A DNA stretch of 64,000 bases from positions 4,257,147 through 4,321,146 of the forward strand of contig OX442429.1 of the NCBI GenBank assembly GCA_949361645.1. Direction: 5' to 3'. The number at the start of each line of letters is the position of its first letter. Position 1 is the stretch's first letter. Below are positions 12,426 through 58,491 of this stretch, piece after piece. Made by a program: the position numbers and the translations under genes. This stretch comes from Spongilla lacustris (Eukaryota; Porifera; Demospongiae; Spongillida; Spongillidae). The notes beneath the pieces were generated by a model, which worked only from the letters and a program-made list of their open reading frames with translations, made no database searches and was not told where the DNA came from.

Positions 12426-13020
12426 GGGACAGTTTCCGACAAAATGGCCCTTCGTATATATATATAAAATGTTATAAAAATGCTTCTCTTTTGAATTGCT
12501 ATATCTTCCTAACGGTTAATGCTATCAACTTCCTATTTTCAACACTTCATACTACACCATTTCCCTATGGTATAATACATTTTGGAGTCTTGCACTTGCT
12601 CCGTGCCAGTATTGCAACGTTCGATACCCCATCGGGCTCAAATCCGCCATAACTTTAGGTAGGAGTAATCAATTCGCCTCAAATTCGGTTTGTAGGTACA
12701 GAGGTCCTATACCTATCGATTTGTTCTGTTCGTTAATTTTTATGTCATCCGTTATGGAGATACAGCGGCGCAAAGTTGGTACAAGTTTCCCGCTCGAATC
12801 GCGCCGTTGCATGTGCATGAACCGCTTCCATTCACCGAAGTACATGAATATTCAACTATTTCCTGTGGGTTGGGACTTTATTAACCTAGCCACACCTACA
12901 AAGCAGGATACGATTTATTTATCGACAAAAGACGGTGAGTATTGAAATCAGAATGTTTTTAATACAATGTTGCCTATGATAGACAGTTGTTATTCGTTAT
13001 CTTCTGTGTAGATAAACGAT
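12426..13020 (+). promoter_or_regulatory. Left terminal/subterminal region and 5'UTR intron of the transposase
   Basis: Starts at the terminus and runs to the ATG. The first 45 bp include CCTTCGTATATATATATAAAATG, conserved at all termini. A predicted 5'UTR intron runs from 12935 (donor GACG|GTGAGT) to 13011 (TTCTGTGTAG), 77 nt, just before ATAAACGATATGG. The same donor/acceptor pair (GTAAGT...CTATGTAG) is kept in elements 2 and 3. No other promoter element is clear; the TATATATAAAA run at 12458-12473 could act as a TATA box. Confidence 0.55.
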
Positions 13021-15696
13021 ATGGCGAAGTCTGACGACGAGCTCGTCGTGTATCATTCAGCGGACGAGTTCGAATGGTACGATAATTTGGACGTGGATGA
13101 GGAGATTGAGAACGGTGGTGACAATGGCGACGGTGAATATGGAAGTGATGATTTCGACGGCATTTATAGCGATGTCTGTGAAGGTGGAATCAACGATGGT
13201 GAAAGCGACGGAGATGACGGTGATGGTGAAAGTGATGATGGTGGAGGTGATAGCGATAAGGGCAGTGATGATGATAGCAGGAGCGAGTGTGATGGTGATA
13301 GCGGAAGCGACTGTGATGGTGATGGTGATGGTGATGATGTCAGCGAGGGCCCAGGTGGTGTACCAGCTAGAATAGCACGGGGACAGTGTCACCCCTGTCG
13401 CATGCTGAATGCCTACCTCACTAAAGGAGGGTGCTGCAAAGACAGCTGTGTATTGAAGTACGGTGACTTGCCCAAAAGACGAGCACTTACATTATCCAGA
13501 TTGGACAAGAAAACCAGAAAGGCTGTTATTTATGGAATGCTAGCTATGATTCGGAACAAATCTGGTTCTCGAAATACATTCCAGTATCGCCTTGACTGGT
13601 CTAGTCCTGTCTGCAGGGATGCTTTCTGTGCCGTCATTGGCACAAGTTACCGTACATTGAAGCGCTGGCAGCAGCAGGTGTGCTCTGACTCTGATGTTGA
13701 GCCCCATCCCCATGGTAACTGTGGCAGGGCTCCTCGCCATGCCCTCTCTCGTTTGGACAAGACAATGGTGGTCAGATTTATAGAGAACTATGCTGGCATA
13801 AATGCCCTCCCTGACCCTGGTCGTTTGCAAGGGACGATCAGAGACTATGTTCTGGAGAGTGGCAAAACACTAAAGTCTGTGTATGCCGAGTATTGCAAGG
13901 CCATGGAGTCCCTGTCCAGGAGCACACCAGCACCACAGCAACTTTGCCCTTACCGACTTACCAGTCAGCTGAAGCGGCAGTACACCTTGCTCAACGTTCC
14001 TCCGGCTCCTCCAACACCCCCTGCTGCACGTGTGGTGAAGTACGTGTCATTTATTAGACTGTGGCGAAGATACTGTTCTAACATCAAGATCCAACCTGCA
14101 CGCAGCGATCTGTGCGACAAGTGTGATCAGATGTTGGTCACTTTGAGGCACAGCCTTTCTGATGAGCAGCGCAAAACAATAAATGTCAATTACAACCAGC
14201 ACCTCATTAAGGCCAAGGCATTTCGTGACGCCTACAATGCAAACATTGAGGAGGCTGAGAAGGAATGGGGAAGGAAGAGACAGAAGGAGCGTGACCAGAT
14301 CCTGGGTCACTTGGAATCCAGGGCCCTGATGGTTCCCTTCACCTCACAAGCCCTGCACCTGGACATGCAGATGCAGTACTCCTTTGACTACTGCCAGCAG
14401 GTGTCACTGCCCTACAGCTCACAACAAAGGGGCACTTTTTATTTCAGGACACCTCGCAAGGTCCAGGTGTTTGGTGTGTGTTGTGAGCCGCTGTGCCGCC
14501 AGGTGTTCTTCCTAATTGATGAGGCTGAGCAGGCCGGCAAGGGTGCTGTGGTGGTGGTCAGCCTGGTGCATGCATTCTTCCACCTACATGGACTGGGAGA
14601 GAGGCGTGTAACACTTCAGGCCGACAACTGTGTGGGCCAGAACAAGAACACCACCATGATGTGGTACCTGGCCTGGCGGGTGATCACTGGACAACATGAC
14701 ACCATCCAGCTGAACTTCATGCTACCTGGGCACACAAAGTTTCGACCCGATTCCTACTTTGGCCTGTTCAAGAAGTACTACCGAAGACAGGACCATGTAG
14801 ATGATATGGATGACCTAGCTGACTGTGTCCGGCAGTGTGGCCAGAACGTCACTTGTGTGCCACAACTGTACCAGGACTGGCAGTACCATGACTGGAATGC
14901 CTTCTTGGGCCAGTGGTTTGGGCCTCTGGTTGGCTTTGGCCGCTACCATACATTTGAGTTTGACCGAGAACACCCTGGTGTCATGAAAATGAAGACCTTG
15001 CCATCGGACACAAACCCCACCGAGGTAACCATGCTGAGGGCTGGAGTGGCCATAAAGGACATACAGGAGGCTTATCAGAACCAAGTGATGCCACCTGTTA
15101 TTAGCCCCAATGGATTGTCCCTGATGCGGTCACTGTACCTGTATGAGAAGGTGAGGGAATACATTCGTGACCCAAAGAAGAGGGACAGGGTATGTCCAAA
15201 GCCTACACCAGGCACTGCTATCAACTCTTCCGAAACACCTGGAGTTCCAGACAGTGACCAACCAGGTCCTTCTAATGCCATTCCTGACCCACCTACTGTT
15301 GAGGGCCAGGAGTCTGCAGATGACACTCACAGTGATATGCAAGACGAAGGCAATAGCTGTGTTTCTGGCAGGAGGAAACGCAGATCCAGGTCTGAACTAA
15401 TCCTTGCCTTCCAGTGCACTGTATGTGGCAATAAGTATGCCAGTAGCTCAGCCCTGTCCCTGCACAAAAAGAACACAGCTCACAAGCAGCCTGCTGTTCC
15501 AGGTGATGAACACCGTGATGTCACTAAGGCGGACAATGCCAGTGTTGACGAAGGAAGCCAGGGTCCACCCTGCAAGCGCAGGCGTAGGAAAAAATCTGAA
15601 ATTGATAGAAAGTTTTCCTGTTCCCAGTGTCCCTTGAAATATGGCACTCAAACTGCATTGCATACTCACATTAAGCACACCCACAATGGTACATGA
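13021..15696 (+). CDS. Putative transposase, RNase H-like core plus two C2H2 zinc fingers (891 aa)
   Basis: Single-exon protein; probable role is cutting and joining of the GGGACAGTT-ended elements in the nucleus. Order of parts: acidic Asp/Gly/Ser-rich tail (1-112); Cys cluster C123, C126, C138-C139, C143; helix-turn-helix-like GTSYRTLKRWQQQV (207-220); C365-x2-C368; core with HLDMQMQYS (D448), VTLQADNCVGQNKN (D535) and PGHTKFRPDSYFG (D577); basic/Pro-rich linker; zinc fingers C799/C802/H815/H821 and C867/C870/H883/H888 with CKRRRRKK (851-858) between them as a likely nuclear signal. The ADNCxGQNKN and GHTxxxxD blocks are those of a widespread uncharacterised animal family (recalled as DUF7869); reading D448-D535-D577 as a catalytic DDD triad is my inference. 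Start: ATG after an in-frame-independent 5'UTR intron. A satellite begins about 130 bp after the stop. This is the only intact copy of six in the window. Confidence 0.8.
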   Translation: MAKSDDELVVYHSADEFEWYDNLDVDEEIENGGDNGDGEYGSDDFDGIYSDVCEGGINDGESDGDDGDGESDDGGGDSDKGSDDDSRSECDGDSGSDCDGDGDGDDVSEGPGGVPARIARGQCHPCRMLNAYLTKGGCCKDSCVLKYGDLPKRRALTLSRLDKKTRKAVIYGMLAMIRNKSGSRNTFQYRLDWSSPVCRDAFCAVIGTSYRTLKRWQQQVCSDSDVEPHPHGNCGRAPRHALSRLDKTMVVRFIENYAGINALPDPGRLQGTIRDYVLESGKTLKSVYAEYCKAMESLSRSTPAPQQLCPYRLTSQLKRQYTLLNVPPAPPTPPAARVVKYVSFIRLWRRYCSNIKIQPARSDLCDKCDQMLVTLRHSLSDEQRKTINVNYNQHLIKAKAFRDAYNANIEEAEKEWGRKRQKERDQILGHLESRALMVPFTSQALHLDMQMQYSFDYCQQVSLPYSSQQRGTFYFRTPRKVQVFGVCCEPLCRQVFFLIDEAEQAGKGAVVVVSLVHAFFHLHGLGERRVTLQADNCVGQNKNTTMMWYLAWRVITGQHDTIQLNFMLPGHTKFRPDSYFGLFKKYYRRQDHVDDMDDLADCVRQCGQNVTCVPQLYQDWQYHDWNAFLGQWFGPLVGFGRYHTFEFDREHPGVMKMKTLPSDTNPTEVTMLRAGVAIKDIQEAYQNQVMPPVISPNGLSLMRSLYLYEKVREYIRDPKKRDRVCPKPTPGTAINSSETPGVPDSDQPGPSNAIPDPPTVEGQESADDTHSDMQDEGNSCVSGRRKRRSRSELILAFQCTVCGNKYASSSALSLHKKNTAHKQPAVPGDEHRDVTKADNASVDEGSQGPPCKRRRRKKSEIDRKFSCSQCPLKYGTQTALHTHIKHTHNGT

Positions 15697-15828: not shown

Positions 15829-18800
15829 TACCAGTGTCACTATTTACACCGTGCACAGAGTCCCAGTGTACCAGTGTCACTATTTACACTGTGCACAGAG
15901 TCTGTTGTGGTGACATGTACCCAGTGTACCAGTGTCACTATTTACACCGTGCATAGAGTCTGTTGTGGTGACATGTACGCTGCAGTGTACCAGTGTCACT
16001 ATTTACACCGTGCACAGAGTCTGTTGTGGTGACATGTACCCAGTGTACCAGTGTCACTATTTACACTGTGCACAGAGTCTGTTGTGGTGACATGTACGCT
16101 GCAGTGTACCAGTGTCACTATTTACACCGTGCACAGAGTCTGTTGTGGTGACATGTACCCAGTGTAAAAGTGTACCAGTGTCACTATTTACATCCTGCAC
16201 ACAGTCTGTTGTGGTGACATGTACCCAGTGTACCAGTGTCACTATTTACACCGTGCACAGAATCTGTTGTGGTGACATGTACCCAGTGTACCAGTGTCAC
16301 TATTTACACCGTGCATAGAGTCTGTTGTGGTGACATGTACCCAGTGTACCAGTGTCACTATTTACACCGTGCACAGAGTCTGTTGTGGTGACATGTACCC
16401 AGTGTAAAAGTGTACCAGTGTCACTATTTACACCCTGCACACAGTCTGTTGTGGTGACATGTACCCAGTGTACCAGTGTCACTATTTACACCGTGCACAG
16501 AGTCTGTTGTGGTGACATGTACCCAGTGTACCAGTGTCACTATTTACACCATGCACAGAGTCTGTTGTGGTGACATGTACATGTACATGTACCCAGTGTA
16601 CCAGTGTCACTATTTACACCGTGCACAGAGTCTGTTGTGGTGACATGTACCTAGTGTACCAGTGTACCAGTGTCACTATTTACACTGTGCACAGAGTCTG
16701 TTGTGGTGACATGTACCGAGTGTACCAGTGTACCAGTGTCACTATTTACATCGTGCACAGAGTCTGTTGTGGTGACATGTACCCAGTGTACCAGTGTCAC
16801 TATTTACACCGTGCACAGAGTCTGTTGTGGTGACATGTACCTAGTGTACCAGTGTACCAGTGTCACTATTTACACCGTGCATAGAGTCTGTTGTGGTGAC
16901 ATGTACCCAGTGTACCAGTGTACCAGTGTCACTATTTACACTGTGCACAGAGTCTGTTGTGGTGACATGTACCCAGTGTACCAGTGTACCAGTGTCACTA
17001 TTTACACCGTGCACAGAGTCTGTTGTGGTGACATGTACCCAGTGTACCAGTGTCACTATTTACACCATGCACAGAGTCTGTTGTGGTGACATGTACCCAG
17101 TGTACCAGTGTCACTATTTACACCGTGCACAGTCTGTTGTGGTGACATGTACCCAGTGTACCAGTGTCACTATTTACACTGGTCACAGAGTCTGTTGTGG
17201 TGACATGTACCCAGTGTACCAGTGTCACTATTTACACCGTGCATAGAGTCTGTTGTGGTGACATGTACCCAGTGTACCAGTGTCACTATTTACACCGTGC
17301 ACAGAGTCTGTTGTGGTGACATGTACCCAGTGTACCAGTGTCACTATTTACACCGTGCACAGTCTGTTGTGGTGACATGTACCCAGTGTACCAGTGTCAC
17401 TATTTACACTGGTCACAGATTCTGTTGTGGTGACATGTACCCAGTGTACCAGTGTCACTATTTACACCGTGCATAGAGTCTGTTGTGGTGACATGTACCC
17501 AGTGTACCAGTGTCACTATTTACACCGTGCACAGAGTCTGTTGTGGTGACATGTACCCAGTGTACCAGTGTCACTATTTACATCGTGCACAGAGTCTGTT
17601 GTGGTGACATGTACCCAGTGTACCAGTGTCACTATTTACACCGTGCACAGAGTCTGTTGTGGTGACATGTACATGTACATGTACCCAGTGTACCAGTGTC
17701 ACTATTTACACCGTGCACAGAGTCTGTTGTGGTGACATGTACCCAGTGTACCAGTGTCACTATTTACACTGTGCACAGAGTCTGTTGTGGTGACATGTTC
17801 ATGTACCCAGTGTACTAGTGTCACTATTTACACCGTGCACAGAGTCTGTTGTGGTGATATATACCCAGTGTACAAGTGTCACTATTTACACCGTGCACAG
17901 AGTCTGTTGTGCTGACATGTACCCAGTGTACCAGTGTCACTATTTACACCGTGCACAGAGTCTGTTGTGGTGACATGTACCCAGTGTACCTGTGTCACTA
18001 TTTACACCGTGCACAGAGTCTGTTGTGGTGACATGTACCCAGTGCACCTGTGTCACTATTTACACTGTGCACAGAGTCTGTTGTGGTGACATGTACCCAG
18101 TGTACCAGTGTCACTATTTACACCGTGCACACAGTCTGTTGTGGTGACATGTACCCAGTGTACCAGTGTACCAGTTTCACTATTTACACCGTGCACAGAG
18201 TCTGTTGTGGTGACATATACCCAGTGTACCAGTGTCACTATTTACACCGTGCACAGAGTCTGTTGTGGTGACATGTACCCAGTGTACCAGTGTCACTATT
18301 TACACTGTGCACAGGGTCTGTTGTGGTGACATGTACATGTACATGTACCCAGTGTACCAGTGTCACTATTTACACCGTGCACAGAGTCTGTTGTGGTGAC
18401 ATGTACCCAGTGTACCAGTGTCACTATTTACACTGTGCACAGAGTCTGTTGTGGTGACATGTTCATGTACCCAGTGTACTAGTGTCACTATTTACACCGT
18501 GCACAGAGTCTGTTGTGGTGATATATACCCAGTGTACAAGTGTCACTATTTACACCGTGCACAGAGTCTGTTGTGGTGACATGTACCCAGTGTACCAGTG
18601 TCACTATTTACACCGTGCACAGAGTCTGTTGTGGTGACATGTACCCAGTGTACCAGTGTCACTGTTTACACCGTGCACACAGTCTGTTGTGGTGACATGT
18701 ACTCAGTGTACCAGTGTACCAGTGTCACTATTTACACCGTGCACAGAGTCTGTTGTGGTGACATATACCCAGTGTACCAGTGTCACTATTTACACCGTGC

Positions 18801-21800
18801 ACAGAGTCTGTTGTGGTGACATGTACCCAGTGTACCAGTGTCACTATTTACACCATGCACAGAGTCTGTTGTGGTGACATGTACCCAGTGTACCAGTGTC
18901 ACTATTTACACCGTGCACAGAGTCTGTTGTGGTGACATGTACCCAGTGTACCAGTGTCACTATTTACACCATGCACAGAGTCTGTTGTGGTGACATGTAC
19001 CCAGTGTACCAGTGTCACTATTTACACCGTGCACAGAGTCTGTTGTGGTGACATGTACCCAGTGTACCAGTGTCACTATTTACACCGTGCACAGTCTGTT
19101 GTGGTGACATGTACCCAGTGTACCAGTTTCACTATTTACACCGTGCACAGAGTCTGTTGTGGTGACATGTACCCATGTAGTGTACCAGTGTCACTATTTA
19201 CACCGTGCACAGAGTCTGTTGTGGTGACATGTACCCAGTGTACCAGTGTCACTATTTACACCGTGCACAGAGTCTGTTGTGGTGACATGTACCCAGCGTA
19301 CCAGTGTCACTATTTACACCGTGCACAGAGTCTGTTGTGGTGACATGTACCCAGTGTACCAGTGTCACTATTTACACCGTGCACAGAGTCTGTTGTGGTG
19401 ACATGTACCCAGCGTACCAGTGTCACTATTTACACCGTGCACAGAGTCTGTTGTGGTGACATGTACCCAGTGTACCAGTGTCACTATTTACACCGTGCAC
19501 AGAGTCTGTTGTGGTGACATGTACCCAGTGTACCAGTGTCACTATTTACACCGTGCACAGAGTCTGTTGTGGTGACATGTACCCAGTGTACCAGTGTCAC
19601 TATTTACACCGTGCACAGAGTCTGTTGTGGTGACATGTACCCAGTGTACCAGTGTCACTATTTACACCGTGCACAGAGTCTGTTGTGGTGACATGTACCC
19701 AGTGTACCAGTGTCACTATTTACACCGTGCACAGAGTCTGTTGTGGTGACATGTACCCAGTGTACCAGTGTCACTATTTACACCGTGCACAGAGTCTGTT
19801 GTGGTGACATGTACCCAGTGTACCAGTGTCACTATTTACACCGTGCATAGAGTCTGTTGTGGTGACATGTACCCAGTGTACCAGTGTCACTATTTACACC
19901 GTGCACAGAGTCTGTTGTGGTGACATGTACCCAGTGTACCTGTGTCACTATTTACACCGTGCACAGAGTCTGTTGTGGTGACATGTACCCAGTGCACCTG
20001 TGTCACTATTTACACTGTGCACAGAGTCTGTTGTGGTGACATGTACCCAGTGTACCAGTGTCACTATTTACACCGTGCACACAGTCTGTTGTGGTGACAT
20101 GTACCCAGTGTACCAGTGTACCAGTTTCACTATTTACACCGTGCACAGAGTCTGTTGTGGTGACATATACCCAGTGTACCAGTGTCACTATTTACACCGT
20201 GCACAGAGTCTGTTGTGGTGACATGTACCCAGTGTACCAGTGTCACTATTTACACTGTGCACAGGGTCTGTTGTGGTGACATGTACATGTACATGTACCC
20301 AGTGTACCAGTGTCACTATTTACACCGTGCACAGAGTCTGTTGTGGTGACATGTACCCAGTGTACCAGTGTCACTATTTACACTGTGCACAGAGTCTGTT
20401 GTGGTGACATGTTCATGTACCCAGTGTACTAGTGTCACTATTTACACCGTGCACAGAGTCTGTTGTGGTGATATATACCCAGTGTACAAGTGTCACTATT
20501 TACACCGTGCACAGAGTCTGTTGTGGTGACATGTACCCAGTGTACCAGTGTCACTATTTACACCGTGCACAGAGTCTGTTGTGGTGACATGTACCCAGTG
20601 TACCAGTGTCACTGTTTACACCGTGCACACAGTCTGTTGTGGTGACATGTACTCAGTGTACCAGTGTACCAGTGTCACTATTTACACCGTGCACAGAGTC
20701 TGTTGTGGTGACATATACCCAGTGTACCAGTGTCACTATTTACACCGTGCACAGAGTCTGTTGTGGTGACATGTACCCAGTGTACCAGTGTCACTATTTA
20801 CACCATGCACAGAGTCTGTTGTGGTGACATGTACCCAGTGTACCAGTGTCACTATTTACACCGTGCACAGAGTCTGTTGTGGTGACATGTACCCAGTGTA
20901 CCAGTGTCACTATTTACACCATGCACAGAGTCTGTTGTGGTGACATGTACCCAGTGTACCAGTGTCACTATTTACACCGTGCACAGAGTCTGTTGTGGTG
21001 ACATGTACCCAGTGTACCAGTGTCACTATTTACACCGTGCACAGTCTGTTGTGGTGACATGTACCCAGTGTACCAGTTTCACTATTTACACCGTGCACAG
21101 AGTCTGTTGTGGTGACATGTACCCATGTAGTGTACCAGTGTCACTATTTACACCGTGCACAGAGTCTGTTGTGGTGACATGTACCCAGTGTACCAGTGTC
21201 ACTATTTACACCGTGCACAGAGTCTGTTGTGGTGACATGTACCCAGCGTACCAGTGTCACTATTTACACCGTGCACAGAGTCTGTTGTGGTGACATGTAC
21301 CCAGTGTACCAGTGTCACTATTTACACCGTGCACAGAGTCTGTTGTGGTGACATGTACCCAGCGTACCAGTGTCACTATTTACACCGTGCACAGAGTCTG
21401 TTGTGGTGACATGTACCCAGTGTACCAGTGTCACTATTTACACCGTGCACAGAGTCTGTTGTGGTGACATGTACCCAGTGTACCAGTGTCACTATTTACA
21501 CCGTGCACAGAGTCTGTTGTGGTGACATGTACCCAGTGTACCAGTGTCACTATTTACACCGTGCACAGAGTCTGTTGTGGTGACATGTACCCAGTGTACC
21601 AGTGTCACTATTTACACCGTGCACAGAGTCTGTTGTGGTGACATGTACCCAGTGTACCAGTGTCACTATTTACACCGTGCACAGAGTCTGTTGTGGTGAC
21701 ATGTACCCAGTGTACCAGTGTCACTATTTACACCGTGCACAGAGTCTGTTGTGGTGACATGTACCCAGTGTACCAGTGTCACTATTTACACCGTGCATAG

Positions 21801-21980
21801 AGTCTGTTGTGGTGACATGTACCCAGTGTACCAGTGTCACTATTTACACCGTGCACAGAGTCTGTTGTGGTGACATGTACCCAGTGTACCAGTGTCACTA
21901 TTTACACCGTGCATAGAGTCTGTTGTGGTGACATGTACCCAGTGTACCAGTGTCACTATTTACACCGTGCACAGAGTCTG
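15829..21980 (+). repeat. 58-bp satellite (type D), left arm of element 1
   Basis: About one hundred tandem copies of a 58-bp unit with the core ATTTACACCGTGCACAGAGT followed by CTGTTGTGGTGACATGTACC and CAGTGTACCAGTGTCACT. Variants carry an extra CAGTGTAC (66 bp) or extra ATGTAC. A block of about 1950 bp is duplicated (for example 17987 onward recurs at 19937 onward), a higher-order repeat. Long open frames exist in it but follow from unit length and are not evidence of a gene. Confidence 0.97.
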
Positions 21981-22027
21981 GTGTTTTTGTTTTATGGTAT
22001 ACATGTACATGTTGATTCTGTAAAAAA

Positions 22028-22115
22028 GGTTCTTCTAAGAACTCGCCACATAGTTGTGTGGCATTTTACAATTACAAATGATGTCACCTTTATTCTGCAC
22101 TACAAATGAACAGAA
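22028..22115. repeat. Innermost block of the left inverted arm
   Basis: AAGGTTCTTCTAAGAACT...CCACAT and ACAAATGATGTCACCTTT here recur as inverse complement at 25507-25600. It shows that the inverted repeat extends beyond the satellite, so the arms are not simply two satellite arrays in opposite orientation. Confidence 0.75.
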
Positions 22116-22245
22116 TGTATACATGTAAATGGATTTGGGTAATGTGTTTGTAGACCACTGTATAAAAGTGTATAGGATGCTTAGGATTACCTACATGTAG
22201 GACATGCATTGTTGTTTTTTTTAAATGCATGAGATGGTATGAATT

Positions 22246-22521
22246 TTGGATGATAACAATAGGGGGAGGTTGTTGTGGATAGATGTAGAGAAACCTAAGT
22301 TCTATGAATACTATAATATTGGACCATGTACATACATTGTTGGATGTTTAAAAGTGACTCTGATGAATTTTCCCAGCTTATGTGTACATGTACTTATCCT
22401 CCATGGAAAAGAATTGTCAAAATTGCTATTGCTGGGTGATATTATAGCAATAAGATATGAAATGGCTGGATCAATAGTACATGTAGATGTGCAGATGTTT
22501 TTGTCACTGCTATGTATTTAA
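22246..22521 (+). other. Open reading frame in the loop, no recognised product
   Basis: An open frame of about 90 codons without an ATG start (first codon would be TTG). It reads RLLWIDVEKPKFYEYYNIG and CLKVTLMN before becoming low in information. Amino-acid use is protein-like, so it may be an exon, but I see no convincing splice sites on both sides and no family. Confidence 0.2.
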
Positions 22522-23416
22522 GGGTGTGTCTTCAATGTTCTGGAGCTGATCCAACCTTCTGGGTCCCCTCCTCCTTCGCCAACCTCTCCTTGGCTGCTCA
22601 CCCCTTTGTGGCTGAGTCAAAGGCTCACTCCATGGTTGTTCCCATTCAGTCTGGCATCTCCATGACTGAGCACTCTGGGGCTGACAGAGCCACCATGGTG
22701 GATATGTCCACCATGGTGGTGGCTGATAGTTACCTGCTGGCAACAAATTCACGTTAGAAACATAAATTGAGGATGTTGTGTACATGTATTACTTTGTGGT
22801 AGGAAAGAAGGTACATGTAGGCCTGACGGCAGGGGAGGAGGTAGGCCTGACGGCAGGGGAAGAGGTAGGCCTGCAAGCAGGGGAGGAGGTAGGCTTGACG
22901 GCAGGGGAGGAGGTAGGCTTGACGGCAGGGGAGGAGGTAGGCTTGACGGCAGGGGAGGAGGTAGGCCTGACGGCAGGGGAGGAGGTAGGCCTGACGGCAG
23001 GGGAGGAGGTAGGCTTGACGGCAGGGGAGGAGGTAGGCTTGACGGCAGGGGAGGAGCCTGGACCAGTGGCAAGGGAGTAGCTTGGACCACAGGCTGGGTA
23101 GTACATGTACATGTAGCTTGGACTGCAGGCTGGGTAGTACATGTACATGTAGCTTGGACTGCAGGCTGGGTAGTACATGTACATGTAGCTTGGACTGCAG
23201 GCTGGGTAGTACATGTACATGTAGCTTGGACTGCAGGCTGGGTAGTAGCTTGGACTACAGGCTGGGTAGTACATGTACATGTAGCTTGGACTGCAGGCTG
23301 GGTAGTACATGTACATATAGCTTGGACCACAGGCTGGGGAGTAGCTTGGACCGCTGGTAGAGAGGAGCTTGGACCGCTGGCTGGGCCATGGGAGGAAGTA
23401 CATGTACATTGTACAT
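22510..23416 (-). CDS. Candidate Pro-rich repetitive protein, two exons (5' end missing)
   Basis: Exon A is 23416-22793 (preceded by ATAACAG on the minus strand), exon B 22733-22510 ending in TAG; the intron is 59 nt with GTAATA donor and GCCAGCAG acceptor, and the phases fit. Exon A encodes tandem repeats: CTCTTQPAVQAT units (36 bp) and then PPPLPSSL/PPPLPSGL units (24 bp). Exon B continues the Pro/Trp character with NYQPPPWWTYPPWWLCQPQS and ends in an Arg-rich tail (RRGWRRRRGPRR). No start codon lies in exon A, so a first exon further right is needed. No known domain. A second frame of exon A (YYPACSPSY units, 212 codons) is also open, because both unit lengths are multiples of three, so the frame choice rests on the splice phase. 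Confidence 0.4.
22817..23056. repeat. 24-bp minisatellite, ten copies
   Basis: Ten copies of a unit GTAGGCYTGACGGCAGGGGA plus GGAG, very regular with only C/T variation and one CAAGC variant. The length is a multiple of three, and all copies stay open in several frames; on the minus strand they encode PPPLPSGL-type repeats of the candidate gene at 22510-23416. Confidence 0.95.
23057..23392. repeat. 36/24-bp minisatellite with TACATGTACATGTA
   Basis: Units of AGCTTGGACTGCAGGCTGGG plus TAGT, mostly with an added ACATGTACATGT (36 bp), sometimes without (24 bp). All length steps are multiples of 12, so reading frames are preserved. On the minus strand it encodes the Gln/Thr/Cys repeats of the candidate Pro-rich gene. 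Confidence 0.93.
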
Positions 23417-23469
23417 GCTGTTATCATAGTAGGAAAAGAGCCTATATTATAATGAAGCTATTGGTTTGC

Positions 23470-24330: not shown

Positions 24331-24374
24331 TATTTAATAAATGTATAGGATTTTGTTTCTTGCATAGGCAAAAC

Positions 24375-25506: not shown

Positions 25507-25740
25507 TGAACCAAGGTAGTGCAGAACAAAGGTGACATCATTTGTAATAGTACATGTAAATTCCACACACATGTGGAAGTTCTTAAAAGAACCTTTTAAG
25601 TTCATTTGCAGATGAATACACATGTACAAGTACAAATGAAGAACAACTTTAACCAGCAGATAATAATACATGTAATGGTGACACTGACAGAGGAGTGGAG
25701 TGGACAAGAGGGAGGACTGGAGTGACATATACCAGTGTTA

Positions 25741-46528: not shown

Positions 46529-46572
46529 CAAATGAACCATATTGTGAGATGCATGCTTTTTATATAGTTTAA

Positions 46573-48645
46573 GGTCACCTCTGCAGTGTACACCATACAT
46601 CTGTGTCGTTAAGGGGTTAACTCTGTATACCATACATCTGTGTCATCAAGGGGTTACCTGTACACCATGCATCTGTGTTGTTAAGGGGTTACCTCTGTAC
46701 ACTTTGTGTATGTGTTGTTAAGGTATCACCTGTACACCATACATCTGTGTCATCAAGCGGTTACCTGTACACCATGCATCTGTGTCGTACCTCTGTATAC
46801 CTTATGTATGTGTTGTTAAGGGGTCACCTGTACACTGTACATCTGTGTTGTTAAGGGGTTACCTCTGTAAACCTTATGTATGTGTCGTTAAGGGATTACC
46901 TCTGTACACCATACATCTGTGTCATCAAGCGGTTACCTGTACACCATACATCTGTGTCGTACCTCTGTATACCTTATGTATGTGTTGTTAAGGGGTCACC
47001 TGTACACTGTACATCTGTGTTGTTAAGGGGTTACCTCTGTAAACCTTATGTGTGTCGTTAAGGGATTACCTCTGTACACCATACATCTGTGTCATCAAGG
47101 GGTTACCTGTACACCATACATCTGTGTCGTTAAGGGGTTACCTTTATACACCTTATGTATGTGTTGTTAAGGGGTTACCTCTTGTGTGTACCCCATACAT
47201 CTGCGTCATCAAGGGGGTACCTGTACACCATACATCGGTGTGGTACCTCTGTATACCTTATGTATGTGTTGTTAAGGGGTTACCTGTACACCATACATCT
47301 GTGTCGTTAAGGGGTTAATTCTGTATACCTTATGTATGTGTTGTTAAGGGGTCACCTGTACACCATACATCTGTGTCATCAAGGGGTTACCTGTACACCA
47401 TACATCTGTGTCGTTAAGGGGTTACCTTTATACACCTTATGTATGTGTTGTTAAGGGGTTACCTCTTGTGTGTACCCCATACATCTGCGTCATCAAGGGG
47501 TTACCTGTACACCATACATCTGTGTCATCAAGGGGGTACCTGTACACCATACATCTGTGTCGTACCTCTGTATACCTTATGTATGTGTTGTTAAGGGGTC
47601 ACCTGTACACTGTACATCTGTGTCGTTAAGGGGTTACCTCTGTAAACCTTATGTATGTGTCGTTAAGGGATTACCTCTGTACACCATACATCTGTGTCAT
47701 CAAGGGGTTACCTGTACACCATACATCTGTGTCGTTAAGGGGTTACCTTTATACACCTTATGTATGTGTTGTTAAGGGGTTACCTCTTGTGTGTACCCTA
47801 TACATCTGCGTCATCAAGGGGGTACCTGTACACCATACATCTGTGTCGTTAAGAGGATACCTCTGTAAACCTTATGTATGTGTCGTTAAGGGGTTACCTC
47901 TGTACACCATACATCTGTGTCATCAAGGGGTTACCTGTACACCATACATCTGTGTCGTTAAAGGGTTACCTCTGTACACCTTATGTATGTGTTGTTAAGG
48001 GGTTACCTCTTGTGTGTACCCCATACATCTGTGTCATCAAGGGGTTACCTGTACACCATACATTGGTGTGGTACCTCTGTATACCTTATGTATGTGTCGT
48101 TAAGGGGTTACTTGTACACCATACATCTGTGTCGTTGAGGGGTTAATTCTGTATACCTTATGTATGTGTTGTTAAGGGGTCACCTGTACACTGTACATCT
48201 GTGTCGTTAAGGGGTTACCTCTGTACACCATACATCTTTGTCATCAAGGGGTTACCTGTACACCATACATCTGTGTCGTTAAGGGGTTACCTCTGTAAAC
48301 CTTATGTATGTGTCGTTAAGGGATTACCTCTGTACACCATACATCTGTGTCATCAAGGGGTTACCTGTACACCATACATCTGTGTCGTTAAGGGGTTACC
48401 TCTGTACACTTTGTGTATGTGTTGTTAAGGTATCACCTGTACTCCATACATCTGTGTCATCAAGGGGTTACCTGTACACCATACATCTGTGTCGTTAAGG
48501 GGATACCTCTGTACACCTTATGTATGTGTTATTAAGGGGTCACCTGTACACCATACATCTGTGTCGTTAAGGGGTTACCTCTGTACATCTTATGTATGTG
48601 TCATTAAGGGGTAACCTGTACACCATACATCTGTGTCGTTAAGGG
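46573..48645 (+). repeat. Satellite A, element 3 left arm (longest array)
   Basis: About 55 units of the 35-37 bp satellite, with superimposed blocks of several units recurring (for example 47408-47650 resembles 47700-47880). Contains TTGTGTGTACCCCATACATC variants at intervals, which mark a higher-order repeat of roughly 300 bp. Confidence 0.93.
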
Positions 48646-48727
48646 TTTTTTACTTTTCACGTAGTGGTGATGTAATCCATCTGATGCTGTGAAAATCTAA
48701 GTCTGGGTACGAGACTAGTAATGACAG

Positions 48728-49275
48728 TGGTCCCATTTACATCCTGTACTTGTGTCTGCTGTGGGATCAAATCCATGGTCCCATTTACATCCTGTATGTG
48801 TATCTATTGTGTGGTCAAATCCATGGTCCCATTTACACCTTGTACTTGTGTCTGTTGTGGGGTCAAATGCATGATCCTATTTACACCCTGTACTTGAGTC
48901 TGTTTTAGGGTCAAATCTATGGTCCCATTTACACCCTAAACTTGTGTCTGTTGTGAAATCAAATCCATGGTTCCATTTACACCCTGCATGTACTTGTGAT
49001 CAAATCCATGGTCTCATTTACACCGTGTTCTTGTGTCTATTGTGGGATATTTGTGGGATCAAATCCATCGTCCGATTTACACCCTGTACTTGTGTCTGTT
49101 ATGGGGTCAAACGCATGATCCTATTTACACCCTGTACTTGAGTCTGTTTTAGAGTCAAATCTATGGTCCCATTTACACCCTAAACTTGTGCCTGTTGTGA
49201 GATCAAATCCATGGTTCCATTTACACCCTGCATGTACTTGTGATCAAATCCATGATCTCATTTACACCCTGTAAG
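48728..49275 (+). repeat. Satellite B, element 3 left arm
   Basis: About eleven 48-bp units, with a few variant units (CCTGCATGTACTTGTGATC). Ends directly at repeat C. Confidence 0.93.
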
Positions 49276-50190
49276 ATCAGAACACATGAGATGTATACGC
49301 GATTTATCTGCCAGTGACTAACATGCCAGTATGCATAGCTAAATAACCCATTGCTTAACCCAGCTAGCTACCTTCTTTCCTACCCCTTCCCCTCGCGATC
49401 TTTAAATATCCTAACACTCAGTGTTGCTTATGAGTACTACCTATTGAGGGCCCAGAATAGCTAACACTCTTTTCATTGCTTAACACAGGCTTCCTTCATT
49501 CCTACCCCTTCCTGTCCCCTCTGAATCCTTGAATCTTACCATACAATTCTGTGTTCGATGTGCGAGTTTTGCTTATGAGTACTACCTGTTGGGGGCCAAG
49601 CGTGTCCCCTCTCGATTGTTCAATCTTAACATGAAATTCTCTGTGTTTGATGTGTAAGTGTGGCTTATGAGTATCACCTGTTGAGGGAACCCTCTTTTCA
49701 CGCTTCCTTCTTTGCTACCCCTTCCCCTCTCGATCTTTCAATATCCTACCATGCAATTCTCTGTGAGTGGTGCTTATGAGTACTACCTGTTGAGGGCCCA
49801 ATGTAGGTAACCCTCTTTTCATTGCTTAACCCGAGCTTCTTTCTTCCTCCTCGCTGTCCCCTCTCAATCTTTAAATATCCTACCATGCAACTCTCTATGT
49901 TTGCTGTGTGAGTGTTGCTTATGAGTACTTCATGTTGAGGGCCCAGTATGGCTAACCCTCTTTTGGTTGCTTAACATGTACAGGCTTCCTTCTTTCCTAT
50001 CTCTTCCTGTCCCCTCTCAATCCTCCATACAGTTCGCTGTGTTTGATGTGTGAATGTTGCTTATAAGTACTAGTACTTGTTGAAGGCCCAGTAGAGTCAA
50101 CCCTCTTTTCATTGCTTAACCCAGGCCTCTTTCTTCCGTACTCCTCTCAATCCTTCAGTCCTTTCATGCATGCACCACATAAACTGCCCA
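49276..50190 (+). repeat. Repeat C, element 3
   Basis: Inverse counterpart of 40150-41030; about eight loose units. Confidence 0.78.
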
Positions 50191-50449
50191 TGAACATGGC
50201 AGCATTACTATCATACACCTAGTAGAGTTTGTTCTGGACTGCAGTATGTGGATTTGCCTTCATCCACAGTTTGACCAAGGTCTGAATAAGAGAGACAGAA
50301 TGTAGGGGGTGCACTGTTTGTTCTTGAATACATTTACATGTAAACCCTAGGACCATGTGCATGAATAATGCATCTCATTGTTTAGTGTAGCTAATTTTTC
50401 ATTCCTAAACCAACAGTTTAGGTAACTAATTAAATATTGGTGCATGGAC

Positions 50450-50705
50450 CATGGCATACTCATTGCTAAAAGGAATTGATCTTGATTTATGCTGGATGCT
50501 GCAAGACCAATATTTGGAAGATGGAGCACCTGCCCACTGTTTATAGGAGTAAGAGGACGAAGAGCAGTAGCCAGCATGAAGTACCGATCTGATGCCCGTA
50601 GATTTTTTTTTGGCTGTGACCCAACTCTCAAGTCAATGACCCTGCAAGACCTGCAGCTGGTTATCACCAACCCAGCCATGATCAGGAGAGCAACATCATA
50701 GATCT
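50450..50705 (+). pseudogene. Decayed Tc1/mariner-type transposase fragment
   Basis: Reading ...LEDGAPAHCL (about 50514-50543), then after stops DLMPVDFFLA (about 50586-50615), then QDLQLVITNPAM in a shifted frame. DGAPAH and PxDFFL with this spacing are hallmarks of the region near the last catalytic Asp/Glu of Tc1/mariner-like transposases. The fragment lacks the rest of the enzyme. The mirrored copy is at 39620-39880. Confidence 0.5.
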
Positions 50706-50819
50706 GGAACTAAAAACTCAATGGCAATTATGGACTGTAACTGGAATATTACATAGCTATATTTTAGTGATGAAAGAATGCTTTCCAAAAGCACACATAA
50801 CAGAAAGAGGAAGGGAGGG

Positions 50820-50991
50820 GGAGTGAGTGAGTGAGTGAGTGAATGAGTGAGTGAGTGAGTTAGTGAGTGAGTGAGTGAGTGAGTGAGTGAGTGAGTGAGT
50901 GAGTGAGTGAGTGAGTGAGTGAGTGAGTGAGTGAGGGAGGGAGGGAGGGAGGGAGGGAGGGAGGGAGGGAGGGGGAGTGAGTGAGTGAGTT
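50820..50991 (+). repeat. (GAGT)n array with internal (GGGA)n block
   Basis: GAGT tetranucleotides with a 40-bp GGGA stretch at about 50934-50975 and GAGT again afterwards. The GGGA block is the same motif as the tract at 1-2171. Confidence 0.95.
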
Positions 50992-51992
50992 GCATGGTAG
51001 GATATTGAAAGATCGAGAGGGGAAGGGGTAGGAAAGAAGGAAGCCTGAGTTAAGCATGAAAAGAGGGTTCCCTCAACAGGTGGTACTCATAAGCAACACT
51101 TACACATGAAACACAGAAAATTCCATGTTAGGATTGAACAATCAAGAGGGGACACGCTGGGCCCCCAACAGGTAGTTCTCATAAGCAAAATTCACACATC
51201 AAACACAGAGAATTGTATGGTAAGGTTAAAGGATCGAGAGGGGACAGGAAGGGGTAGGTTTAGAAGTTAGCCTGTGTTAGGCAATGAAAAGAGGGTTAGC
51301 TATACTGGGCCCTCAGCCCACACATCAAACACACAAGGTTGCACGGTAGGACAGGAAGGGGTAGCTTTAGAAGGTAGCCTGTGTTATAGCAGGGTGATTT
51401 AGCTATGCATACTGGAGCATTAGTAACACTGACAGATAACTCTGAATCACGTATACATCTCATGTGTTCTGATCTTTAAAAACTGAACTTGTTATGAAAA
51501 GACAATTGTCTAGTCTTGTGATCGATTCATTAGAAGCACACATGTATGTGGATTGCTGTCGAGTATTAGGTATTTGTGTATGTGCATGGTATAGCAATGC
51601 TCCTACAAATTTTAAAGAGCATGAGTGATTAGGTACAGAGAGGTGCATGGAATGATTGAAGGATTGAGAGGGGACAGGGTAGGAAAGGATAAAAGCCTGG
51701 CTAGTCTATGAAACAAGGGTTAGCCATGCATGCTAGTGTGTTATAAGCCCTCAACAGTTACTCATACGTAACACTCACCCCCATCTCTACCGATTTTTAA
51801 CTCAACTTGTAATCAAAAGGCAATGTCTAGTGATTGATTCACTATAGTCCTATTGGAATGCACACTCTTATGGAATGGTGTCAGGTATTGTGTATTAGCA
51901 ATCTGTGCATGGGCATATCAAAGAACTCAAAAGTGTAGGAGTAATGTGGATTAGGTACAGAGAGATGCATGGAAGGATAGAATAATGTAGAG
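50992..51992 (-). repeat. Repeat C inverted, element 3
   Basis: Inverse counterpart of 38339-39330, including the less repetitive part next to P (51470-51990). Confidence 0.78.
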
Positions 51993-53392
51993 GAGACAGC
52001 TAGACCTCAGCATGCATGTGGAGTGGAACCTTCAACTGGAGCCGACCCCAAATACTGGGGCCAGCCACAATGGCCTTCTATCCTAGCCCCACACAGCTCC
52101 TCACTGCAAATGCAAATGAAGCCACTACCTATGAAACCATTATCCCCCACACTACAAGAGGACTTACTGGTAGGGGAACCATCGTGGAGCTACCATCTCG
52201 CATTGGACAAATGGGGATACCACCACTGGAGCAGCCTCCATTTGTAGAGTGTACCTGCCTACATTTTTCTCTTCACACATTTTGTGTTGTAGATCTACAT
52301 GTAGATCTGAACTACTATAGACATGTACATGTACAGAGTAAAATTTATCTGGTGTGAAGCCATGCTGTTAGTGGTGAATATGGTTACCTGCCCTATCGGT
52401 ACTGATTGCGGTGGGTCTGCACCCGTGGTTGGTGTATTTAGACAACCAAGGCTTGCAGAGGGCGTTTTGCCTACTGGGAACTACATAGGCCTACTGTACT
52501 GTACGCGAGTAGCAAAATATGGAAGTGCCATTTTAAATTGCATGCACAGTCACAGCTACAATGTGGCACGATGAAGACATCAGAATTCATGACCACACAA
52601 GTGGAGTTAATAGACCCTACAAATTTAATGGATTCATCAACTACGTTATACCTAGCCCTAGGCTGGTGTTTCTGCAAAAATGTATGTGCGCGGGTAGTGT
52701 ATAGTGGCCGTGGGGCACAGGTGAAACTGGGTTACACTGGTAATGTCTGGTGACATCTCTGAAAGTGTAGGGTCTACTAACTCCACTTGTGTGATCATGA
52801 ATTCTGATGTCTTCATCGTGCCACATTGTAGCTGTGACTGTGCATGCAATTTATGTGACATTCAAAATGGCACTTACATGTTTTGCTACTAGTTCTCAGT
52901 ACATGTAGGCAAAACGCCCTCTGCAAGCCTTGGTTGTCTATTACACCAACCACGGGTGCAGACCCACCGCAATCAGTACCGATAGGGCAGGTAACCATAT
53001 TCACCACTAACAACATGGCTTCACACCAGATAAGATTTACTCTGTACATGCACAAAACACGTAGATCTACATGTCTACAGTAGTTCAGATCTACATGTAC
53101 AACACAAAATGTGTGAAGAGAAAAACGTAGGCATGTACACTCTACAAATGGAGGCTGCTCCAGTGGTGGTATCCCCATTTGTCCAATGCGGGCTGGTAGC
53201 TCCACGATGGTTCCCCTACCAGTAAGTCCTCTTGTAGTGTGGGGGATAATGGTTTCATATGTAGTGGCTTCATTTGCATTTGCAGTGAGGAGCTATGTGG
53301 GGCTAGGATAGAAGGCCATTGTGGTTGGCCCCAGTGTTTGGGGCTGGCTGCAGTTCAAGGTTCCACTCCACATGCTGAGGTCTAGCTGTCTC
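51993..53392. mobile_element. Inner palindromic element P in element 3
   Basis: Same 1.4-kb inverted repeat as 36950-38338, in opposite orientation, with GAGACAGCTAGACCTCAGCA ends. Confidence 0.75.
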
Positions 53393-53892
53393 GACCCCAT
53401 TCAACCCTGGTAATGTGGCAGCTGGCAGCTCTCCGGCCTGTTGGTAGTATGATTACACCATATGTAAGAGGGGTGTTTAGGGGTGGGTGGGAGGGCTGGT
53501 CGTGTGGGGACTGAGAGTGCTATTGAGTAGGGGATGGCCTGGGCCTCGGATACAACTTGCAGTAGAGGAGGATAGGTAGTGGGAGATAGGGCCATGGGGA
53601 TGAATGGGGCATGTGTGAATCCAGTTGATGGCTCCTCTAATATTGTGGGGGGTGCCGATTCCTATCGCAGTGTGAGAGCTGCATTATTGTCGTGGGGACC
53701 CCCAATGACCCTGTAGGATTTTTTAGCACCTGATTGCTCCCTTGCTGACAGTCTGATAACTCCACCTGCAATTGCTCCATGCACTGGTGCTAACTGTCTG
53801 GATATGTAGTGTGGGGCTATTAAGTCAACTTGCATTAATGGTTCTGTCCACTAGCAGTGAGGGAGCTGACCTGATTGGACCCTGGGCCATTA
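53393..53892 (-). other. Unique segment U1, element 3
   Basis: Inverse copy of 36459-36949 with few changes. No gene recognised. Confidence 0.5.
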
Positions 53893-54715
53893 CAGGGTGT
53901 AAATGGGACCAATGCATTGACCGCACAACAGACACACATACATGTACAGAGTGTAAATGAGACAATAGATTTGATCCTAAAACAGACTCAAGTACAGGGT
54001 ATAAATGGGAACATGGATTTGATCACAAGTACAGGGTGTAAATCAGACCATGAATTTCATCCCACAACAGACAAAAGTACAGGGTGTAAATGGGACCAAT
54101 GAATTGACCCCACAACAGACAAAAGTACAGGGTGAAAATGGGACCAATGAATTGACCCCACAACAGACACAAGTACAGGGTGTAAATGGAACCATGGATT
54201 TGACCCCACAACAGACACAAGAACAGGGTGTAAATGGGACCATGGATTTTACCCCACAACAGATACAAGTACAGGGTGTAAATGGGACCATGGATATGAC
54301 CCCACAACAGACAAATGTACAGGGTGTAAATGGGACCAATGAATTGACCCCACAACAGACACAAGAACAGGGTGTAAATGAGACCATGGATTTGATCACA
54401 AGTACAGGGTGTAAATAGAACCATGGATTTGAGTCATTACAACAGACACAAGTACAGGGTGTAAATGGGAGCATGGATTTGACCCTAAAACAGACTCAAG
54501 TGCAGGATGTAAATGGGATCATGCATTTGACCCCACAACAGACACAAGTACAGGGTGTAAATGGGACCATGGATTTGACCCCACAAAGATACACCTACAG
54601 TGTGTAAATGGGACCATGGATTTGACCCCAAAATACACACATACAGGATGTAAATGGGACCATGGATTTGATCCCACAGCAGACACTAGTAAAGGGTATA
54701 AATGGGACCACTGTC
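53893..54715 (-). repeat. Satellite B, element 3 right arm
   Basis: About seventeen 48-bp units, inverse orientation; shares unit variants in order with 35505-36458, but lacks some units, so units were lost or gained in blocks. Confidence 0.93.
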
Positions 54716-54796
54716 GTTACTAGTCTTGTACCCAGACTTAGATTTTCACAGCATCGGATGGATTACATCACCACTACGTGAAAAGTAAAAAATCCT

Positions 54797-56505
54797 TAAC
54801 GACACAGATGTATGGTGTACAGGTAACCCCTTAATGACACATACATAAGATGTACAGAGGTAACCCCTTAACGATACAGATGTATGGTGTACAGGTGACC
54901 CCTAAACAACACATACAAAAGGTGTACAGAGGTATCCCCTTAACGACACAGATGTACAGTGTACAGGTGACCCCTTAACAACACATACATAAGGTATACA
55001 GAGGTACGACACAGATGTATGGTGTACAGGTACCCCCTTGATGACACAGATGTATGGTGTACAGGTGACCCCTAAACAACACATACAAAAGGTGTACAGA
55101 GGTATCCCCTTAACGACACAGATGTACAGTGTACAGGTGACCTCTTAACAACACATACATAAGGTATACAGAGGTACGACACAGATGTATGGTGTACAGG
55201 TACCCCCTTGATGACACAGATGTATGGTGTACAGGTGATACCTTAACAACACATACACAAAGTGTACAGAGGTAACCCCTTAACGACATAGATGCATGGT
55301 GTACAGGTAACCCCTTGATGACACAGATGTATGGTATACAGAGTTAACCACTTAACGACACAGATGTACAGTGTACAGGTAACCCCTTAATGACACATAC
55401 ATAAGATGTACAGAGGTAACCCCTTAACGACACAGGTGTATGGTGTACAGGTGACCCCTTAACAACACATACATAAGGTGTACAGAGGTATCCCCTTAAC
55501 GACACAGATGTATGGTGTACAGAGGTAAACCCTTAACAACACATACATAAGGTTTACAGAGGTATCCCCTTAACGACACAGATGTATGGTGTACAGGTAA
55601 CCCCTTGATGACGCAGATGTATGGGGTACACACAAGAGGTAACCCCTTAACAACACATACATAAGGTGTATAAAGGTAACCCCCTAACGACACAGATGTA
55701 TGGTGTACAGGTAACCCCTTGATGACACAGATGTATGGTGTACAGAGGTAATCCCTTAACGACACATACATAAGGTTTACAGAGGTAACCCCTTAACGAC
55801 ACAGATGTACAGTGTACAGGTGACCCCTTAGCAACACATACATAAGGTATACAGAGGTACGACACAGATGTATGGTGTACAGGTAACCGCTTGATGACAC
55901 AGATGTATGGTGTACAGGTGATACCTTAACAACACATACACAATAGGTACAGAGGTAACCCCTTAAAAACACAGATGCATGGTGTACAGGTAACCTCTTG
56001 ATGACACAGATGTATGGTGTACAGGTGATACCTTAACAACACATACACAAAGTGTACAGAGGTAACCCCTTAACAACACAGATGCATGGTGTACAGGTAA
56101 CCCCTTGATGACACAGATGTATGGTGTACAGGTGATACCTTAACAACACATACACAAAGTGTACAGAGGTAACCCCTTAACAACACAGGTGCATGGTGTA
56201 CAGGTAACCCCTTGATGACACAGATGTATGGTGTACAGGTGATACCTTAACAACACATACACAAAGTGTACAGAGGTAACCCCTTAACAACACAGATGCA
56301 TGGTGTACAGGTAACCACTTGATGACACAGATGTATGGTATACAGAGTTAACCCCTTAACAACACATACACAAAGTGTACAGAGGTAACCCCTTAACAAC
56401 ACAGATGCATGGTGTACAGGTAACCACTTGATGACACAGATGTATGGTATACAGAGTTAACCCCTTAACGACACAGATGTATGGTGTACACTGCAGAGGT
56501 GACCT
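54797..56505 (-). repeat. Satellite A, element 3 right arm
   Basis: About 47 units, inverse orientation, with a run of about 118-bp higher-order repeats near 55960-56440 (GATGCATGGTGTACAGGTAA recurring). Confidence 0.93.
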
Positions 56506-56548
56506 TAAACTATATAAAAAGCATGCATCTCACAATATGGTTCATTTG

Positions 56549-57928
56549 TCATGAACCATTGTTGGTCTTGTTGTAAGTATACAGTGCGGCTGGGGTGCTG
56601 TACGTCATGCCACACACCGAACAGGAAAATGGCCTGTCAATTTCAGATTTTAGCGTACGCCTCGCGGCCTGCGCTTGGGTGGACCCTGGCTTCCTTTGTC
56701 GACACTGGAATCCGTGTTCGTCACCTGGAACAGCAGGCTGCTTGTGAGTGTTCTTTTTGTGCAGGGACAGGGGGCCTGGCTACTGGCATACTTCTTGCCA
56801 CATACATGTACAGTGCATTGGTAGGCAAGGATTAGTTCAGACCTGGGTCTGCATTTCCTCCTGCCAGAAACACAGCTATTGCCTTCACCTTGCAATTCAC
56901 TGTGAGTGTCATCTGCATACTTATGACCCTCAACAGTAGGTAAGTGAGGAAGGTCTTGGTTTGTCATTTTTTGCTACTGCATGGGATGAAGCATTACCGC
57001 ATGTATAGGAAGAGTTGGCCTCTGAGCTTTGTGAAGGCTTTGGACACACCTTGTCCCTTTTCTTGGGGTCACGAACGTATTCCCTCACCTTCTCGTACAG
57101 GTACAGTGACCGTGTCAGGGACAATCCACTTGGGGGTAATAACAGGTGGCATCACTTGGCTCTGATAAGCCTAATGTCCTTTATGGCCACTCCAGCCCTC
57201 AGCATGGTTACCTCGGTGGGGTTTGTGTCCCATGGCAAGGTCTCCATCCTCACGACACCAGGGTGGTCTTGATCAAACTCAAATGTGCGGTAGTGTCCTA
57301 GGCCAACCAGAGGACCAAACCACTGGCCCAAGAAGGCATTCCAGTCCTGGTACAGCTGTGACACACAAGTGACATCCTGGCCACACTGCTGGACACAGTC
57401 AGCTAGGTTCTGCTGTAAGTCCATTCATTGGGATGTGTGGCTTCCCTTGATTGAAATTGTGGGGGCTGCCAACTCCATTTGCAGCAAGAGGGATAGCAGT
57501 GTCTCCACTGGTATACTATTGTGGAGGCTGACCCCATTGGTTAGTTTGTGGCTCGTGTGTATAAGGGTCTGATATGGGCAGGTGGTTCCATAGGTAGTGC
57601 GGGTTGGTGGCGTCTGCTGTTGGTTATGCGGGGCTGCTGTCTGGACTTGCAATGTAGCGAGGAATATGTGGGGGTGGGGCTGGTGTCCATCCGCAGCTGT
57701 GGGAATCAGGGTCTGGGTACGAGACTAGGGCTGCTGGCTCTTAGTCATTTAGGGGCTGCTTACTCCCTACAACCACCATCGTCAGTAGTATAACCGCCGT
57801 CACTACCGTTCTCAATCTCCCCACCTCGTCGAATGTATCTTGAATATCGATCGTCGTATCCGTATCGCTCAAACTCGTCCGCCGATTGAAACTCTTGCGA
57901 GTGTGTTGTCTTCAGTGGACGTCGCCAT
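56549..57928 (-). pseudogene. Transposase pseudogene, right arm of element 3
   Basis: Inverse copy of 45149-46528; same filler and frameshifts, with only scattered substitutions. Confidence 0.88.
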
Positions 57929-58491
57929 ATCCGTTATCTACATAGGAGATAACGAATAACAACTGTGACAGGGACGATACATTAAATACTTACCCATCAG
58001 ATCTAGCTAGCGCAGTATGGGTGTGGCTATAAGTTATCAAAGTCTCGGCCCACAGGAAGTAGTTGCATTTCATGTGCTTTGATGAATGGAAGCGGGCCTC
58101 GCACGTCCAACGGCGCGATTCGAGCGGGAAACGTGTACCAACTTTGCGCCGCTGTATCTCCGTAACGGATGACATAAAAATTAACGAACAGAACAAATCG
58201 ATAGGTATAGGACCTCTCTACCTACAAACCGAATTTGAAGCGATTTCATTACTCCTACCTAAAGTTATGGCGGGTGTGAACCCGGTGGGGTATCGAACAT
58301 TGCAATACTGGCACGGAGCAAGTGCAAGACTCCAAAATGGATTTTAAAATAGAGAAACGGTGTAGTATGAAGTGTTGAAAATAGGAAGTCGATAGCTTTT
58401 ACCGTTCAGAAGTTATAGCGATTCAAACATAAGGGAATTTTATAACATTTTATATATATATACGAAGGCTCATTTTGTCGTGAACTGTCCC

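Follow-up and report, generated by a model that had tools for sequence, protein, structure and literature searches.

Closest described systems

Foldback forms of a transposase-bearing family are already known from Galileo, a P-superfamily element of Drosophila, in which foldback-like copies have terminal inverted repeats (TIRs) lengthened by recruited internal sequence and tandem repeats (PMC3573991; this and the other papers cited are represented by excerpts of their text). Sola transposons have a DDD transposase, a 4-bp duplication, variable termini and TIRs of 11-1124 bp, with some elements of more than 15 kb and with bacterial members (PMC10741241). Here we describe three giant elements, U1, U2 and U3, that lie in a row in a 64-kb stretch of the genome of the sponge Spongilla lacustris (assembly GCA_949361645.1, contig OX442429.1, positions 4,257,147 to 4,321,146; hereafter the window, with positions counted from its first letter). 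Very likely they belong to the cut-and-paste DNA transposons with a transposase of the DUF7869 family, probably of Sola type, with origins of their palindromes and chains as proposed below.

The U elements resemble Sola in their DDD triad, 4-bp duplication and bacterial relatives, a comparison of features and not of sequences; palindromic derivatives and AT-repeat chains, which are found here, are not mentioned for Sola in the excerpt (PMC10741241). Matched on these described features, the U1 transposase is probably Sola-type. The likeness to Galileo lies in an autonomous family with foldback forms and in tandem repeats within the inverted repeats. Galileo differs in its transposase, its 7-bp duplication and its TIRs of up to ~1.25 kb, and its longest TIRs, according to the excerpt, never occur in nearly complete copies, whereas U1 combines an intact gene with arms of ~7.1 and 9.6 kb (PMC3573991). 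The inverted repeats of Tetris and Foldback elements likewise contain tandem repeats akin to satellite DNA, but Tetris has an 8-10-bp duplication and, in the text excerpted, no transposase found, while the palindromes described here have a many-copy partner with an intact frame (PMC4079207). ATon elements also have TIRs and insert at AT, but are short and non-autonomous and use an AT dinucleotide as target (PMC3422177).

In the literature searched, we found no gene-bearing copies with 7-9.6-kb arms in a burst of dozens, no multi-copy palindromes made of two right ends, no AT-repeat chains, nothing on sponge transposons and no publication on DUF7869; a search for palindromes together with microsatellites gave only an unrelated review. 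The elements tie foldback-type giant palindromes to a transposase gene that is intact and was recently amplified, and to relatives in the same genome that are less palindromic, which opens the origin of foldback elements to testing. They also suggest a concrete role for DUF7869 and point to long palindromes spreading in an animal genome.

Structure of the three elements

The motif GGGACAGTT occurs seven times in the window, which is beyond chance (0.94 expected; seven reached by 0 of 100 shuffles). Genome-wide (248.6 Mb, 51 contigs) there are 2715 forward and 2708 reverse occurrences, compared with 601 and 590 for a reversed-sequence control. Six of the seven in the window are the paired ends of U1, U2 and U3, whose outer coordinates are exactly those given in an earlier note made from the letters of the window. 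The first 30 bp are identical at both ends of each unit, one terminus is common to U2 and U3, and (AT)n lies outside each unit, with spacers of 14 bp between U1 and U2 (32914-32927) and 16 bp between U2 and U3 (44570-44585).

U1 (12426-32913, plus strand; 20,488 bp) is a complete autonomous-type element with GGGACAGTT ends and ATAT on either side. Its left TIR (12426-13162, plus) reaches into the first codons of an intact transposase gene (13021-15696, plus; 891 codons, 891 aa) and matches the right TIR (32180-32913, minus) at 94% in inverted orientation. Between the gene and the right TIR lie a 6.1-kb array of a 58-bp satellite (15862-21980, plus), a 3.8-kb interior without long inverted arms (21985-25829), a 5.4-kb satellite array in inverse orientation to that on the left (25830-31233, minus) and, running into the right TIR, a frameshifted transposase remnant (31347-32320, minus) that consists of aa 1-28 and 605-891 and lacks aa 29-604.

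U2 (32928-44569; 11,642 bp) and U3 (44586-58491; 13,906 bp) are gene-less and palindromic, and have the same layout: a terminal repeat, a 3' fragment of the transposase gene (aa 593-891), 35/72-bp and 48-bp satellites and a hairpin-centred interior, followed by the mirror image. The fragments lie at 33996-34875 (plus) and 42621-43501 (minus) in U2 and, interrupted by stops, at 45653-46525 (plus) and 56552-57424 (minus) in U3. The satellites of U2 (34937-36454, 35/72-bp and 48-bp; 41045-42559, 48-bp and 35/72-bp) enclose a central hairpin (36950-38338) in which 36950-37565 pairs with 37710-38338 as an 88% inverted repeat; those of U3 occupy 46587-49273 and 53891-56490. The three units had been called head-to-tail. 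They do stand three in a row, but the term has little meaning for U2 and U3, whose arms are mirror images and of which U3 has its interior inverted relative to U2.

Inverted arms of several kilobases with satellites (58/66, 48 and 35/72 bp) in both arms, as the earlier note had described, are present in all three elements. The arms match at 94% over 741 bp and then 89% over 6.5 kb in U1, at 95% over 2.5 kb in U2 and at 92% over 3.8 kb in U3. Colinear inverted coverage is 0.70, 0.60 and 0.70 for U1, U2 and U3, respectively, and 0.43, 0.63 and 0.64 with tandem repeats masked. Arm similarity is 99.75% within U2 and 99.90% within U3, compared with 98.7-99.0% between the two. The claim that the gene sits in both arms holds for U1 insofar as gene and remnant occupy opposite arms, but the intact copy is in one arm only, and U2 and U3 carry only 3' fragments. 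Non-transposase frames of at least 150 codons looked repetitive and gave no sign of host-like genes, with no further search made on those frames.

Some of the satellite monomers are alike: the 58-bp monomer scores 66 against the 48-bp one (shuffle maximum 32), and the 48-bp monomer scores 38 against the 72-bp one (shuffle maximum 24); the likeness of the 58-bp monomer to the 71-bp monomer of a related element, B1 (see below), is borderline (30, shuffle maximum 28). A common origin of all satellites was rejected, as 58 bp versus 72 bp scored 26, below the shuffle maximum of 30, and scores for the 19- and 115-bp monomers were not above those of their own shuffles.

The transposase

The U1 protein is a DUF7869 protein (PF25273; Pfam match of 58 bits, gathering cutoff 26) with a DDD triad (D456, D535 and D577) and weak C2H2 matches at its C-terminus. 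It is predicted to be integrase-like, with an RNase H-like fold carrying three invariant acidic residues; an initial structure model based on 24 sequences was poor (predicted local distance difference test score 51). Among the matches listed, the only named relatives are from Ephydatia muelleri. Bacteria also have DUF7869 proteins, and a clear inverted repeat surrounds the gene at 8 of 12 bacterial loci. Matching 4-bp A/T duplications were seen by eye at three of these eight (AATT, AAAT and ATTT), the rest being mismatched or unclear. At the bacterial loci L048, L050 and L057, inverted repeats flank DUF7869 genes, with 4-bp A/T duplications by eye. The earlier proposal of a new transposon group is doubtful, given that the protein is also bacterial and that the Sola features fit as far as the excerpt describes them (PMC10741241); its palindromic architecture is supported.

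Copies across the genome

Genome-wide searches covered the best-scoring candidates: the best 51 of 1354 for the transposase protein and the best 40 of 1631 for U2/U3-type arms (every one at least 98%), two lists that do not reach older copies, the best 40 of 435 for the U1 right-arm remnant (31240-32300, 1061 bp) and the best 40 of 43 for the U1 interior (23900-25400, 1501 bp). The U1 protein recurred at 100% over 891 aa at 37 loci, the window included, and a second protein type (90%, open frame of 880 aa) at 11. The right-arm remnant was 100% identical at 34 of its 40 loci and the interior at 38 of its 40 places, with the full score at 37.

Placement was assessed for 39 U1-type gene loci (the 37 with identical protein, a truncated one and one with a 99% match). 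At 29 of them, including the window, the gene is followed by the interior and then by the right-arm remnant; at the other ten, the interior, the right arm or both are missing from the scored copies. These 29 complete elements, 28 with an identical protein, span 17,567-22,955 bp in 22 distinct lengths, which document natural changes of the satellites around transposition. Their gaps fall into two classes modulo 58 (left 22/29, right 17/29), and satellite gaps vary among the multi-copy elements generally. Two U1-type copies (C5:857088-857187 and C6:7407711-7407810) have the same 45-bp right flank and gap lengths and different left flanks.

Among the U2/U3-type arms, 32 of 40 form inverted pairs, giving 16 palindromes of 7.8-14.7 kb with ends extrapolated from the arm matches and not directly read; eight are unpaired. 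Besides U2 itself, the pairs include eight with 100% arms spaced 11.2-11.6 kb apart and, besides U3, others with 99% arms spaced 13.3-14.7 kb apart. A majority of single-copy interiors, which the earlier note had named as the outcome that would speak against it, is not seen among scored copies (arrangement present at 29/39 gene loci and absent at 10; present for 32/40 arms and absent for 8), and its observation of palindromic units is confirmed. Intact genes in both arms were not found: no convergent gene pair lies within 25 kb among the 51 protein loci, the nearest being 42 kb apart on C3. Judged from these matches, U1-, U2- and U3-type elements are multi-copy mobile units, and the dozens of U1-type copies identical over the compared stretches indicate recent amplification.

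Related elements and arm types

A 130-kb stretch of C1 contains a chain of six elements with 6-20 bp of AT between them; in one of these a single base varies at one end, and GGGAAAGTT forms the ends of the smallest. Two of the six, B1 (14.3 kb) and B3 (23.3 kb), are closely related and have a single gene at the left end (frame open in B3; match split over two frames in B1), terminal repeats of ~474 bp, 71/72-bp satellites on the left versus 48-bp satellites on the right, and a central hairpin. The palindromic architecture is therefore not uniform: it holds as a trait for U1-U3, but not for B1 and B3, with their one gene, short (~0.47-kb) terminal repeats and side-specific satellites. B2 is an 8.3-kb palindrome along its whole length (96%), and in the long palindromes B4 and B5 nothing matches the transposase. 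Inverted coverage was scored for ten large elements (U1-U3, B0-B5 and an element labelled C2, C1:4168220-4177665) and is 0.54-1.00 in eight, with 0.20 in B1 and 0.12 in B3. With repeats masked, B1 (0.37) and B3 (0.39) come near U1 (0.43) and B0 (0.49), the other six ranging from 0.63 to 1.00. Ten of 12 small copies (803-841 bp) are inverted over their full length at 82-92%; those of 404 and 418 bp are not.

Element D1 (C2:20306440-20320062, 13,623 bp) has a left gene with an open frame (88% aa identity). Its right arm carries, in inverted orientation, an aa 593-891 remnant spread over three frames, and the 72- and 48-bp satellites are inverted as well. Two subfamilies hence combine a gene-bearing arm with an arm that holds a 3' remnant, D1 being the only copy read of the second. 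The arms of U2 and U3 match the D1 right arm at 92.5-93% along 2 kb and the left arm only partially. In a tree of the first 470 bp of element ends, the U2 and U3 ends group with the D1 right end (support 0.989), the two U1 ends group together (0.988) and are next joined by the B1 and B3 left ends (0.933), and the D1 left end is a long branch placed weakly (0.439) beside the right-end group. From the tree and the D1 arm matches, U2 and U3 look like right-end/right-end palindromes and U1 like a left-end/left-end element; B2 and B4 are probably right/right forms as well.

Several candidates were rejected as elements, namely the end pairs at C1:1751697-1754653 and C1:3156203-3169346, and L043, L044 and L046, in which the ends face the wrong direction.

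Target sites and chains

Thirty U1-type copies were read at both ends (the 29 complete ones and C21:2832834). All have a flank match of at least 4 bp, ATAT in 29 and AATT in one, and the match is exactly 4 bp in 13. The flanks indicate a target duplication of 4 bp, mostly ATAT and often within AT repeats; because most copies sit in AT runs, the main evidence for this length comes from the AATT and AGAT copies, in which it is unambiguous. Another exact TIR lies within 45 bp of nine of the 30 copies. Genome-wide, 98 end-to-end junctions have ATAT at both edges (control 0); these occupy 196 of ~5,400 GGGACAGTT sites, so chains are a minority. Chains combine different subfamilies, each element with its own matching ends.

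Searching the joined flanks of a copy on C12 returned both flanks and one 72% match unbroken across the joint (C12:8398636), a weak candidate for a pre-insertion relative of that site. The joined flanks of the 404-bp copy gave no unbroken copy among 12 matches. Copies of 404 and 418 bp and a satellite-filled copy of 14.7 kb occupy the same AATT site of a repeated flank (C1:1764116, C1:1866497 and C1:2086120).

Origin of palindromes and chains

We propose that the transposase of U1-like copies would move all types, since their ends are common. A palindrome could be born if a copy of one arm replaces the other by template switching during excision-gap repair, or by fusion of inverted neighbours; either route would yield left/left (U1) and right/right forms (U2, U3 and probably B2 and B4), after which the redundant gene copy would decay and whole palindromes would spread. 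Chains may grow because an ATAT target persists at the edge of every insertion and is then re-used. A wider generalization, that the DUF7869 life cycle includes palindromization (left/left autonomous and right/right gene-less forms of 8-14 kb), satellite change at most moves and self-extending AT chains, is put forward only tentatively and may well be wrong. Frequent arm copying is at odds with the 34 loci at which the U1 right arm stays distinct from the left.

The alternative that fares best, although we consider it unlikely, is that each palindrome consists simply of two oppositely inserted elements whose inner ends were lost, arm copying playing no part. Such neighbours exist, 8 bp of (AT)n apart (C3:837875-837900), and the idea overlaps with our own model; it would account for the birth of palindromes, but not for the later homogenization of arms within U2 and within U3.

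Rather improbable is a chain that arose by local duplication or moved jointly as a composite, instead of by serial insertion into AT repeats. At three places, on C16, C22 and C15, a U1-type end does adjoin a palindrome of U2 or U3 type, two similar divergent gene pairs lie 46 kb apart on C3, and the U1-type copies at C5:839995 and C6:7390618 have a common right flank and all measured gaps in common, with unlike left flanks. The spacers are nevertheless unequal (14, 61 and 53 bp, some ends being extrapolated), as are U1-type lengths where known (20,489 versus 18,010), and the members of a chain belong to different subfamilies that have matching end pairs of their own.

An assembly artefact, with palindromes made from fold-back chimeric reads or mis-joined repeats, is very improbable: palindromes and satellites are difficult to assemble and the window does contain a 200-N gap (2172-2371), but the gap is outside the units, the arms show 0.1-17% divergence and unequal satellite lengths, unlike a self-folded read, and the same order recurs at many loci with flanks mostly different by eye. 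That these are ordinary Foldback elements allied to Mutator or P (Galileo) is hardly credible, since the U elements, Foldback-type in having long inverted repeats with tandem repeats, as in Galileo and Tetris, have a DUF7869 transposase whose listed matches at E <= 1 include neither THAP nor P nor MULE domains, lack both the THAP-type P transposase and the 7-bp duplication of Galileo and the P superfamily, and duplicate 4 bp, compared with 7 bp (Galileo; PMC3573991) and 8-10 bp (Tetris; PMC4079207) in the excerpts.

Other repeats and features of the window

An 822-bp full palindrome with GGGAAAGTTTACGA ends lies in AT repeats as the sixth member of the C1 chain (C1:2175487-2176308) and is perhaps a sister family sharing the AT target. 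A repeat starting with GGAACGTTCTATG adjoins AT runs at insertion sites (C22:2620222-2620321, C3:9235271-9235370 and C1:4168120) and may represent a further mobile element that shares this target. Within the window, the seventh GGGACAGTT (60469, plus) is an orphan within long (AT)n, and no exact mate follows it within 23.5 kb. A 2.2-kb (GGGA)n tract (1-2171) runs up to the 200-N assembly gap, and minisatellites of 27 and 33 bp (63217-63966) lie close to the window end.
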